The notes under the pieces: model-generated
Databases searched by the model: none
What the model was told of the DNA's origin: nothing
Seen by the model: the letters and a program-made list of their open reading frames with translations, nothing else
IMG/VR virus record: IMGVR_UViG_3300027971_000198
Location: 1 to 26,049 of that record
Length of the DNA: 26,049 nucleotides
Reading direction: 5' to 3' (one strand)
Origin: a virus
In this document: in pieces, positions 5,051 through 20,544 of the stretch
Numbering within the stretch: position 1 is the first letter of the stretch
Layout: the number at the start of each line of letters is the position of its first letter
Translations under genes and position numbers: made by a program

Positions 5051-5506
5051 GGGACTCCAACACCTTTCAGGAGGGGATGAATTTGTACAGGGGACTCCGG
5101 GACTCCGACGACGCGACGGCCTGGGCCGACCCTACCCCCCCCCTGCCTGCGCTGCGAGCCGTCACCTTTGAGCCGTCGGTGTCGTGTTTATCGTCCGGGT
5201 TTGATGGTGACGTTCCCGCAGCGGGAAGGGGTAGCCGCTGCACCCGTTGACACTTCCGCCGGCGGGGTACTAGCGGGGTACACCTATAACCAGGGCAGGG
5301 GGGCGGGCATAGTTTCCCCGAGCTGATCGGCGGCCCGTTAGATACACGCGCGCGCGGGCCGATCGGTGCGTGAGTACGGCGCGGGAACTAACCCGCCCTA
5401 TGCACTATCCCTACACCTGCTTGACACCTAAGCGGCGTTAGTGTACGTTGTGTTCACCTACGCTAACCGGCGTTAGGTAATAACCGACCAGATAGGGAGA
5501 CATACC
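5051..5506. promoter_or_regulatory. Divergent control region between TerL operon and plus-strand operon
   Basis: No convincing gene lies in these 456 bases. It holds three GGGACTCC copies near 5051-5107, a run of nine C (5135-5143), the perfect palindrome TTCCCGCAGCGGGAA (5213-5227), a GGGGTAC direct repeat near 5265-5281, a GC-rich imperfect hairpin near 5324-5363 containing CGCGCGCG, and two TTGACAC elements (5247 and 5421). It must drive the late operon leftward and the small-gene operon rightward. Confidence 0.6.
5421..5449 (+). promoter_or_regulatory. Sigma-70-like promoter for the plus-strand operon
   Basis: A perfect -35 hexamer TTGACA (5421-5426) is followed after 17 bases by TACGTT (5444-5449), a fair -10. 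The octamer GGCGTTAG occurs inside the spacer (5434-5441) and again downstream in the palindrome CTAACCGGCGTTAG (5463-5476), a likely operator. The clamp-like gene starts at 5507 after GGGAG. Confidence 0.6.
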
Positions 5507-6130
5507 ATGTCAGTAATCGAACGTGAAGTAACTGAAGTTGTAGCGGCCCCGGTAAGCGCTAGCTATGTCAAGTGTGAAGTTCCCGTATGGAAAGCGGCAA
5601 GCACTGATAAGACCAGGCCGGCATTGCGGGGAGTTGGTTTCGCTAGTCGTGACGGCGTTACGTATTGCGTAGCTACCGATAGCTATATGCTCGCAGCGGT
5701 GCCGGTGGAAGGTGTACCGGCGGAATGGTGCGGCGCTATTGTTCCGCTAGAAGCTGCAAAGCTGTGGCAGAAGTCAGGCAAGCGCAATACGCCCGCGCCC
5801 GTATTGACTATTGACCGCGCCGCGAATACGTGCACCGTAGTTACCGACGACGGCGCTACTAGTTTCGCGCTAGTGGAAGGGGCCGCGCCTAAGGTAATAG
5901 AATTGGTACCCGATAAATACCTGGCAGATAGCTTCGATACGTCCCCGGTACTTGGTGAGTTTGGCTTGAACCCGTGCCTAATGGTTAGTGTCATGCAGGC
6001 GCTAGGCGGCAAGCTCGGAGTCCGTGTTAGGTCAATCGGGGCGACCCGTGGGCTATTCGTACAAGCGCGGAATAGTAATAAGGGCTACCTCCCCGGATTT
6101 GCCCTGGTGATGCCTATCAAAGTTGATTAG
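5507..6130 (+). CDS. Sliding-clamp-like (beta-clamp) protein, short form
   Basis: A 207-residue protein with GGGAG 7 bases before its ATG. Residues 36-66 (RPALRGVGF ... VATDSYMLAAV) match the beta-clamp pattern 'RP.L.GV.F ... ATD.YRLA', and the C-terminus 'FALVMPIK' (198-205) resembles the 'LVMPVR' end of DnaN domain 3. The middle (LTIDRAANTCTVVTDDG) fits the paired beta strands of clamp domains. At 207 residues it is just over half of bacterial DnaN (about 365), so it would hold two clamp-like folds instead of three. A clamp tethers polymerase to DNA; a phage version might replace or block the host clamp. The assignment is by pattern memory, not search. It is the first gene of a coupled operon behind a strong promoter. 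Confidence 0.5.
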   Translation: MSVIEREVTEVVAAPVSASYVKCEVPVWKAASTDKTRPALRGVGFASRDGVTYCVATDSYMLAAVPVEGVPAEWCGAIVPLEAAKLWQKSGKRNTPAPVLTIDRAANTCTVVTDDGATSFALVEGAAPKVIELVPDKYLADSFDTSPVLGEFGLNPCLMVSVMQALGGKLGVRVRSIGATRGLFVQARNSNKGYLPGFALVMPIKVD

Positions 6131-12722: not shown

Positions 12723-13241
12723 CTATGTCTCAGGGCATAATTCCATTATGCGACGGCCAAGCCACTCACTAACCGTTGCAGTCACCCCGTCACCACACGC
12801 CGCGTACCTACGACCATCCGGCGCTGGCATATCCTCATTCGGAACGTACCCCGGCTCAAACCACCGAGGCGTATCCACGAGACTTGGCCCGTTGAGCAGC
12901 GTCCATCCATCGGGCCAACCTTGAAGGCGCTCGCACTCAACCGGCGTAAGGCGACGCACAAGCGCTTGTTGACGCACTGCGGAATAACCTTGACCTGGAC
13001 GGCCTCCCTGCTTTTGCAACGTAGGCGCAACGTCCATTTCACGAACTTCATCTCGCACATTCATCGCAAATGCTTTTGTTTCGTCAAGTTCATTATTCAT
13101 GCCCCCCCCCGCAATCGACACGGCAGGCGGCGACGGAATACCAATGCCAGACCCAACTTGCAAAGTAGGAAAAGTTTCAGTGCTGGCGTCAACGCTTATT
13201 GACCCGCCAGTGCTGCGGAAACTAATCGGTTTGTCACTCAT
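12723..13241 (-). CDS. C5-cytosine methyltransferase, C-terminal part (motifs IX-X)
   Basis: 172 residues from ATG 13241, in the same frame as the 13254-14066 gene but after its TGA. It holds part of the target-recognition domain, then motif IX 'VRRLTPVECERLQGWPDGW' and motif X-like 'ACGDGVTATVSEWLG'. The overlap ATGAGTGA at 13234-13241 joins it to a reading frame that continues from the N-terminal part. A run of nine G (13102-13110) encodes AGGG inside the gene and is prone to slippage. Either this is the beta subunit of a two-chain enzyme like M.AquI, or one gene broken by frameshift. Confidence 0.75.
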   Translation of the reverse strand: MSDKPISFRSTGGSISVDASTETFPTLQVGSGIGIPSPPAVSIAGGGMNNELDETKAFAMNVRDEVREMDVAPTLQKQGGRPGQGYSAVRQQALVRRLTPVECERLQGWPDGWTLLNGPSLVDTPRWFEPGYVPNEDMPAPDGRRYAACGDGVTATVSEWLGRRIMELCPET

Positions 13242-13253
13242 CGCCAACCACAA

Positions 13254-14066
13254 TCATGTTGAAGTTGTCCGCTCGGCTGTAGTCGTGGCACGTTGTCTCA
13301 AGACAGTGAGCAAGTTCTGGCACTCGTCCCCCGCTGGGCCGCCGCCCTTTCTCCACTTCGCCGTCACCGTGGGGCTCACGGGGGGGCCATAGCCACTCAC
13401 ATACGCGCCGTGACCGTCTAACTCGGTGTGGCTTCGTTGGATGCGTCTGCCGCTGATAGTTCCTGCAACGCTTTGGCCAAAGCTTCGGGAATCGGTTTTC
13501 CCCGTTTCCGCGCTCGCCTCAAAATCCCCGTTGCGGCCCTCGATGAGAGCAAGAATCTGGACGGGAAGCTCGGACTCAGCACGGACACCAACAATGAACA
13601 CCCGCCTGCGTCGCTGGGGCACACGGAAGAATTGGCTGTCAACAAGCCGGTACCCGACAGAAAACCCGATGTCGGAAAGCGTCCGCAAGACGACGGCCAT
13701 GTCATTTCCGTTGTTGGAACTGAGCAGTCCGGCCACGTTCTCAGCGATAAGTACTCCTCCGGGTCGAACATACTCGTCTGCGATTCGTGCAAAGTCATAA
13801 AACAAACCACTCCTTTCACCGGCCAAGCCCTTCCGCTTACCGGCAACGCTCAAGTCCTGGCAGGGAAAGCCACCAGCGACACAATCCACCAATCCGTCGT
13901 GCGTGAACGTGCGTACATCGTCGTGAACTGGCACACCCGGCCAATGCCTTGCCAACACCTGCCTGCGATACGGGTCGGCCTCACAGAACGCAACGTGCTC
14001 AAAGCCCGCTCGATGCAAACCAAGATCCATGCCGCCAACGCCACTAAACAAACTGATCGTCTTCAC
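13254..14066 (-). CDS. C5-cytosine methyltransferase, N-terminal part (motifs I-VIII)
   Basis: 270 residues from a GTG at 14066 overlapping the previous stop (GTGA). Motif I FSGVGGMD, motif IV GGFPCQDLS with the catalytic Cys, motif VI ENVAGL and motif VIII QRRRRVFIV are all intact, so the SAM-binding catalytic core is present. The last part, from about 13314, reads poorly in this frame (QRATTTAERTTST), while the -1 frame continues as a plausible target-recognition sequence (LAHCLETTCHDYSRADNFN) and stops at 13234, overlapping the start of the C-terminal part. It would methylate phage DNA to evade host restriction. Whether the frame change is real, programmed or an error is open. Confidence 0.85.
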   Translation of the reverse strand: MKTISLFSGVGGMDLGLHRAGFEHVAFCEADPYRRQVLARHWPGVPVHDDVRTFTHDGLVDCVAGGFPCQDLSVAGKRKGLAGERSGLFYDFARIADEYVRPGGVLIAENVAGLLSSNNGNDMAVVLRTLSDIGFSVGYRLVDSQFFRVPQRRRRVFIVGVRAESELPVQILALIEGRNGDFEASAETGKTDSRSFGQSVAGTISGRRIQRSHTELDGHGAYVSGYGPPVSPTVTAKWRKGGGPAGDECQNLLTVLRQRATTTAERTTST

Positions 14067-19286: not shown

Positions 19287-19673
19287 TCAGCCCTGCAAAC
19301 TCCTCACCAACACCACAGTCCCCTCAGTGCCGTACTCCTTCTGCGCCACAAGCCTTGTAATGTGCCTGTCGTCCACCAACAAGCCACCCGCGACCAAACC
19401 ATCAAGTAGACACCTGGCAAGCTTGTCAACGTCATTACGCGACGGATACTTGTACTTCGGTTTCTGAGGACTCAAGAACCGAAACCTGATCTCCACCTCA
19501 TACGGGGGCTCAAGCTGATCCATCCCGGAGACAACCGCAGCCACACTGTTCTGATAATCCTTCTCCCGAGCATTAGCCGGTCGAGTGAACACAGTCCCGT
19601 TCTTACGTACGCCGGCAACCCTTGAACCCTTAGGGGCCGGTTCACCAGGAATGATCAAGTGAACGACTTTCAT
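19287..19673 (-). CDS. rusA: RusA-family Holliday junction resolvase
   Basis: 128 residues, ATG sharing ATGA with the methylase stop. RusA hallmarks are seen: N-terminal 'IPGEPAPKGSRV' beta strand and loop, then 'SRNDVDKLARCLLDGL' and 'LLVDDRHITRL' carrying the catalytic Asp residues (D in NDVDK and DD), and 'AQKEYG'. RusA dimers cut four-way junctions, resolving recombination intermediates and branched DNA before packaging. It is the last gene before the terminator, so it is transcribed with the late genes. Confidence 0.92.
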   Translation of the reverse strand: MKVVHLIIPGEPAPKGSRVAGVRKNGTVFTRPANAREKDYQNSVAAVVSGMDQLEPPYEVEIRFRFLSPQKPKYKYPSRNDVDKLARCLLDGLVAGGLLVDDRHITRLVAQKEYGTEGTVVLVRSLQG

Positions 19674-20170
19674 GCGAACACCAACTGCGCTACCTCAGCT
19701 GCCATTCCACCCGTGCCGGGGAACAAATCAACAACTTCATCGCCATCCTCATATCCAAGAAGATCAAGCACCCAACGGTTGAACTGAGATGACTTAGCGC
19801 CCGGAAGTCCACGCTGCTTTGTCGCATTGCCAGTCATCCAATCCCGAACCATCGGGTTACGTTTAGGCAACGAACGCCCCCCCCGGAACACAACGGGCTC
19901 CCAAGCGTGCTGCACTGACGTTGGCCTAATCTGGTGCCATGTCTTAACCCACGATGCAACACGCGCATCTTCTGGGCAAGCAGGCAAGATGAAACGAAGG
20001 TCACGCGGGTTACAAGACAATGCCCACCCGTCAGGAAACTCGTCCGTCAACCGCTTCACAAGGTTGATGTGAGCATCTTTTGAATCCCAAACGGCAGCCT
20101 CGGGGTGATGCGCACCGTAAAGCTTCTTGCCGCAACCAAAGTACGGCGGATCAGCGTAAGCAAACTTCAA
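19670..20170 (-). CDS. DPPY-type DNA methyltransferase
   Basis: I place the start at TTG 20170, which shares TTGA with the previous stop and has GGAGG 7 bases upstream; a GTG at 20197 lies inside that gene. The 166-residue protein starts with the catalytic motif IV 'FAYADPPYFGCG' (DPPY at 7-10) and ends with the SAM-binding motif I 'VVDLFPGTGGMA'. This reversed order marks beta-class amino-methyltransferases. I recall close actinophage relatives that begin the same way. A run of eight G (19877-19884) in the coding strand encodes RGGR and is slip-prone. Target site unknown. Confidence 0.8.
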   Translation of the reverse strand: MKFAYADPPYFGCGKKLYGAHHPEAAVWDSKDAHINLVKRLTDEFPDGWALSCNPRDLRFILPACPEDARVASWVKTWHQIRPTSVQHAWEPVVFRGGRSLPKRNPMVRDWMTGNATKQRGLPGAKSSQFNRWVLDLLGYEDGDEVVDLFPGTGGMAAEVAQLVFA

Positions 20171-20544
20171 TCGTCGTCCTCCACCATGTTCCACCACCTG
20201 TAAGCCTCAGTAGCGTGGTGTAGTGCTTTGAGCTTGTGAGCACCAAGACCATCAAGTCCTGAGAGCCTGCGCTGCTGATCAAGCCACACCGCATAGTTCA
20301 CGAAATCCAACAGTTCCTCGTTGCCCTCACGGTGAAAGTTCCTTGTCAAGATGTGCCTGACCCAACCAAGGCCACTCCTAGCAAGACGATTCGCGTTGAT
20401 CACAACGCCCGCCTCAGGACTTACACGTTCAACTAGGACATTCTCAGCCCGAACGTTGCGCTTGAAGCCCTCAGGAATAGGCCGACCACACTTGATGCAA
20501 TCAGTCATACGAGGGTTAGGGAACGGGCTGTGGTCACAGGTCAC
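20167..20544 (-). CDS. Hypothetical zinc-ribbon protein
   Basis: 125 residues from a GTG sharing GTGA with the phosphoesterase stop. C3 and H5 plus a CIKCG pair (residues 16-20) near the N-terminus suggest a small zinc ribbon; the remaining 100 residues are helical with Trp/Arg-rich segments (GLGWVRHILTRNF, YRWWNMVEDDD). No family recognised. Between phosphoesterase and methylase, it probably belongs to DNA processing. Confidence 0.65.
   Translation of the reverse strand: MTCDHSPFPNPRMTDCIKCGRPIPEGFKRNVRAENVLVERVSPEAGVVINANRLARSGLGWVRHILTRNFHREGNEELLDFVNYAVWLDQQRRLSGLDGLGAHKLKALHHATEAYRWWNMVEDDD

Follow-up and report, generated by a model that had tools for sequence, protein, structure and literature searches.

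Multispecific C5 methyltransferases of phages of the Bacillus SPbeta group, as Trautner is said to have set out in 1996, carry several target-recognizing domains in their variable region. As far as is known, all of these domains are encoded in a single frame and belong to a single chain.

Two-chain C5 enzymes that are split at the place considered here are also known. In M.AquI the break falls in the variable region, motifs I–VIII and motifs IX–X are held in separate chains and the genes overlap; M.EcoHK31I is likewise a C5 methyltransferase of two polypeptides (PMC3404938). The H. pylori Type IIG enzymes JHP1272 and HP1353-HP1354 have two homopolymer runs, one serving as an ON/OFF switch and the other as a frameshift switch of specificity (PMC3936762), and the specificity of NgoAV HsdS (N. 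gonorrhoeae) shifts on a change in a run of 7 G (PMC9577141). According to a 2026 review, phase-variable methylation arises through ON/OFF expression and hsdS recombination and is sparsely represented in Type II systems (PMC13076061). In the literature covered, repeat-driven switching of methyltransferase specificity was described for bacterial Type I and Type IIG enzymes, and no case was found for phages or for C5 enzymes.

Gene organization at the locus

The window, i.e. the whole stretch of DNA analysed, is a virus record of 26,049 bases (IMGVR_UViG_3300027971_000198). Profile searches identified genes for a P22-like portal, a terminase and an integrase. Directly 5' of the integrase gene, on the minus strand, is a methyltransferase gene spread over two open reading frames. 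The first, for the alpha chain, runs from 14066 to 13254 as sequenced (frame A, GTG start, 270 amino acids) and comprises C5 methyltransferase motifs I–VIII, a variable segment (segment 1) and a short tail without conservation. It matched PF00145 over profile positions 1–168 (E 6e-48), as well as phrog_116 and phrog_363, and its best solved relative was M.HhaI. The second, for the beta chain, runs from 13241 to 12723 on the minus strand (ORF 13253/13241..12723; 172 amino acids counted from the ATG) and holds further variable segments and motifs IX–X. It matched phrog_16528 (E 8e-26) and PF00145 over profile positions 235–294 (E 1e-4, slightly short of the curated cut-off). Alpha and beta together hold what defines a C5-cytosine DNA methyltransferase, namely PF00145 matches with motifs I–VIII and IX–X. 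The initial annotation had placed motifs I, IV, VI and VIII in 13254–14066 and motifs IX–X in 12723–13241, and the PF00145 matches bear this out.

Alpha and beta lie in one shared frame, interrupted by the TGA at 13256–13254. Frame A is convincing through segment 1 (VSPTVTAKWRKGGGPAGDECQNL, 13311..13379, minus strand), which ends in DECQNL at about 13311 and also occurs in many homologues. From about 13314 a second segment (segment 2, LAHCLETTCHDYSRADNFNMIVVGDE) is readable in the −1 frame (frame B) only. Together with its stop TGA (13236–13234) it occupies 13234..13314 on the minus strand, and the stop overlaps the beta ATG (13241–13239) in ATGAGTGA (13234..13241, minus strand). Because alpha and beta share one frame, the two frame changes (−1, then +1) cancel. 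A credible −1 continuation ending at 13234 in this overlap had been proposed and was recovered here; the accompanying statement that frame A declines after about 13314 was right as to the change of frame, but frame A is good slightly further, through DECQNL. No slippery site was seen by eye at the A-to-B change point itself.

Segments 1 and 2 are placed between motifs VIII and IX, the position of target-recognizing domains, and for this reason they may act as target-recognition modules that set the target sequence.

A run of seven C (C7, 13380..13386 on the minus strand; G7 on the plus strand) is located directly 5' of segment 1 and is the proposed slippage site. A run of nine G (G9, 13102..13110, minus strand) is located in beta ahead of motif IX and may be a second ON/OFF tract. 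These two runs, and the repeats found across the family (see below), were absent from the initial annotation. For two G or C runs of at least 7 in 710 nt, a first-order Markov model of the window gave a P of about 0.004, the region being chosen post hoc. Elsewhere in the window, a C8 is present on the plus strand at 19877–19884, within a minus-strand ORF (19670–20197) without a PHROG match, and a C9 on the plus strand at 5135–5143, outside the main ORFs. A scan of the window for consensus promoters gave nothing above chance.

Comparison with a close relative

Close relatives were sought in IMG/VR with the integrase, the segment 2 peptide and the beta chain, and a single one was found, IMGVR_UViG_3300018868_000418 (L002). 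Its alpha chain is 81% identical, and its integrase 87% identical, to those of the window. L002 keeps the −1 change after DECQNL(V), the ATGAGTGA overlap and beta in the frame of alpha, and its −1-frame segment (CLETTCHDYSRADNFNMVLVDE) is of the same kind as segment 2. The indels between the two sequences in the frame-change stretch are of 6 and 3 nt, i.e. multiples of three (partly by eye). The variable region of L002 has a C8, placed as the C7 of the window, and a G8, located elsewhere in beta than the G9.

In segment 1, five codon changes between the window and L002 are synonymous and none is nonsynonymous in frame A, and none is synonymous in frame B (P=0.0002 for the frame A pattern, with the same substitutions placed at random). 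In segment 2, three codon changes are synonymous and two nonsynonymous in frame B, both of the latter being conservative (I/V and V/L); read in frame A, 6/6 changed codons alter the residue. Random placement gave P=0.014 for the frame B pattern, a value based on 7 substitutions and one relative, and this selection test is the thinnest link in the argument. The substitutions fit coding in frame A before the change point and in frame B after it. Since the changes are synonymous in A before that point and silent or conservative in B after it, both frames appear to have been translated at some time.

These data bear on whether the gene is decaying, or owes its form to two compensating indels that arose as errors of sequencing or assembly. 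Some homologues are intact and single-chain, e.g. L003, the closest (67% identical, with other variable segments), and L005, which has segment 1 within a continuous frame. Both frame changes nevertheless recur in the L002 contig, from metagenome 3300018868, and selection is seen on both sides of the change point, so that decay or error is very unlikely. Sequencing error and a simple pseudogene were rejected on these grounds. One gene with two compensating frame changes, as had been suggested initially, describes the geometry correctly, in that alpha and beta share a frame; its error or decay version is contradicted by the conservation in L002 and by the substitution pattern. At the level of sequence comparison, the split into alpha and beta is well supported as real, and sequencing error as the origin of the layout is contradicted. 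A structure model of L005 had a pLDDT of about 23 in the variable region and was uninformative there.

Run length and reading frame

The gene was read with other lengths of the two runs. With C7, as sequenced, alpha carries segment 1 (270 amino acids). With one more C (or two fewer) alpha carries segment 2 and has 277 amino acids, its end being the stop that overlaps the beta start. With one fewer C (or two more) a stop is met right behind the run (229 amino acids). L002 gave the same three outcomes in relative shifts. Full-length beta was obtained from G9 alone among G7–G11. At both the C7 and the G9, run length decides the reading frame of the product, which is the mark of a repeat-driven phase-variable gene.

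We propose an M.AquI-like two-chain enzyme in which the alpha segment is chosen by slippage of the C run (phase variation), a reading to which we give an even chance. Alpha would consist of motifs I–VIII and one variable segment, beta of further segments and motifs IX–X, and the two chains would assemble. Either of two segments, encoded in different frames behind the slippable C run, would be carried by alpha, the run being the probable switch point. In the C7 state the 270-residue alpha would end with segment 1 and the short tail; an extra C (or two fewer) would bring segment 2 into frame and end alpha at the TGA overlapping the beta ATG; one fewer C (or two more) would end translation immediately behind the run. 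The G9 in beta would serve as a further switch, of the ON/OFF type. Against this reading as a whole stand the shortness of C7, the single close relative, the 7 substitutions behind the segment 2 test and the freshwater group described below, which splits without a repeat.

The same run may instead act during expression. In frame A the C7 is phased as C_CCC_CCC, i.e. as a slippery heptamer correctly phased for a −1 frameshift, and the C run of L002 is equally phased. A −1 slip at this site would enter frame B exactly, and frame B is open from the C7 run through segment 2 to the overlap stop. Programmed −1 ribosomal (or transcriptional) slippage would then give every cell both forms of alpha, the one with segment 1 and the one with segment 2, in a fixed proportion. 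We regard this as unlikely, as relatives have (AG)n or (AC)n at the site, where such a slip is not expected; the one frameshifting review searched held no C7 −1 site, which is weak evidence. Switching by DNA slippage is favoured over ribosomal slippage, given the dinucleotide repeats of the relatives and the differences in repeat length among them.

A plain M.AquI-like enzyme would dispense with the switch: alpha would stop at 13254, beta would reinitiate at 13241 and segment 2 would be an untranslated remnant. The beta ATG is indeed close behind the frame A stop (12 nt 3' of it in the window and 3 nt in L002), and many relatives are split without any repeat. Segment 2, however, appears conserved at the protein level when read in frame B but not when read in A, the indels in the stretch are multiples of three and the overlap of frame B stop and ATG is conserved, and this explanation is improbable, to about the same degree as programmed slippage.

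Homologues and repeats across the family

In dozens of related viral contigs a break falls between motifs VIII and IX. An M.AquI-like two-subunit enzyme had been among the initial readings, and it gains support from this break site, which is that of M.AquI and is common to L002 and these viral relatives. A homologue ending exactly as frame A does had been named as a result that would refute the hidden frame between the halves; none was seen among the homologues compared.

Homologue counts were made on 169 non-redundant genes with motifs VIII and IX, 78 of which are not one continuous frame. A slippable run was defined as G or C of at least 7, or a dinucleotide of at least 6 units. The variable region had 58 slippable runs in 104.7 kb (0.554/kb), the methyltransferase core 2 in 126.8 kb (0.016/kb) and the flanks 35 in 983.6 kb (0.036/kb), the variable region being about 15 times denser than the flanks. 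Slippable repeat and frame break co-occur: the ratio of broken to continuous genes was 40:2 with a repeat and 38:89 without (169 genes, relatedness only partly corrected). Counted by clusters at 80% identity of the N-terminal half, the ratios were 15:2 and 6:59 (P=6e-10); P was 0.004 with clustering at 70%, and at 60% the clusters were too few to conclude.

The repeats in the variable region of related phages are (AG)6–13, (AC)8–9 or G7–13, and almost every example with a repeat is a metagenomic contig. Of the loci that have a repeat near segment 1, 8/8 have the −1 frame open across the segment, compared with 10/23 of those that lack one (P=0.01), and segment 1 genes without a nearby repeat are mostly one continuous frame. 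Homologues were also found in a scan of bacterial genomes, and the carriers of segment 1 inspected there (L153, L158, L159, L187 and L212) continue in frame. No isolate with the layout of the window was found: INPHARED held no close DNA match to the window, other family members gave partial matches only and the segment 1 region none, and the protein matches were distant. The phage methyltransferase genes of L010, L038, L048 and L089 contain coding (GA)n or (AC)n repeats that reach 29 nt in length. A Mediterraneibacter MAG contig (DWYB01000079.1, L210) has a G13 in the variable region of a C5 methyltransferase at about position 5800 of the locus, with the C-terminal part in another frame.

Four related phages (L010, L017, L038 and L048) have (AC)9 or (AG)8–10 at the place of the C run of the window. 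The repeat is followed by segment 1 (VxPAVTAKWAKGSGGPAGDECQNLV) and then by a second segment (VAGTLTATYGEQSGQDMGPSGAGLV and related sequences), which is shifted by −1 in L017, L038 and L048 and by +1 in L010; L010, L038 and L048 have an additional second repeat and a third segment. At one site the second repeat is (AG)6 in L038 and (AG)13 in L048. Synonymous and nonsynonymous codon changes between these two number 3/0 in segment 1, 3/0 in the core of segment 2 and 6/0 in segment 3, with one residue differing over the longer segment 2. The segments are thus mutually out of frame, yet each evolves synonymously in its own frame. Continuing the frame of the N-terminal domain leads into segment 2 for L010, segment 1 for L017 and segment 3 for L048, and for L038 into none of these. 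In L264 an (AG)13 directly precedes a segment that is now out of frame, and behind this segment is a putative beta start, MSD, as in the window. In L238, which has a G10, nothing 3' of the run is in phase with the N-terminal frame.

In a freshwater group of relatives the split needs no repeat. Alpha typically ends in VVVHEE and a stop or in a similar way, and a TTG or ATG located 20–23 nt before the alpha end can serve as the start of beta (LWFTKSRRAQN...). This overlap of 20–23 nt is recurrent, e.g. in L011, L013, L034 and L042. By eye, the base that varies behind CAC leaves the residue of the beta frame unchanged (ACN, Thr) and alters the alpha tail (E/K/Q). Because the variable base is a silent third position in the beta frame, that frame of the overlap appears constrained and the alpha tail does not. 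Close freshwater relatives have G runs that differ by one in length; part of the freshwater poly-G is ordinary glycine coding, and at one place AGGAGGAG alternates with G8. A further layout was noted in L004 (3001–3954), L047/L231 and L130 (4123–5212), where motif IX (VRRLTPTECERLQG...) is in another frame inside the frame of motifs I–VIII and X; it resembles the arrangement of M.EcoHK31I.

Discussion

Taken over the family, the data suggest a group of phage C5 methyltransferases with alternative target-recognition segments that are bounded by repeats and lie in different frames, the repeat length picking the one translated and letting a phage population present several modification patterns. 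We put this forward tentatively, with slightly less confidence than the two-chain switch proposed for the window. Should this hold, the members of a phage population would differ in the methylation marks that they make, a point relevant to escape from restriction and from methyl-dependent defences, and the phage methyltransferases that look broken in metagenomes would be switches and not debris. The enzymes are small and testable in E. coli. The literature covered, with few subscription papers in it, gave no account of a phage C5 enzyme whose alternative segments lie in different frames, and the apparent novelty is provisional.

The locus differs from each of the described systems. Unlike the break of M.AquI, that in the window is accompanied by slippable runs and by an additional segment in a different frame. 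The small chain of M.EcoHK31I holds motif IX only, whereas beta of the window holds both IX and X. The H. pylori Type IIG enzymes are bacterial, produce m6A and acquire an additional C-terminal domain, and NgoAV HsdS is a Type I specificity subunit in which two genes are fused or truncated; the enzyme of the window is a phage C5 methyltransferase, and its alternative segments occupy different frames. In contrast to the SPbeta-group enzymes, the window encodes a split enzyme whose segments do not share a frame.
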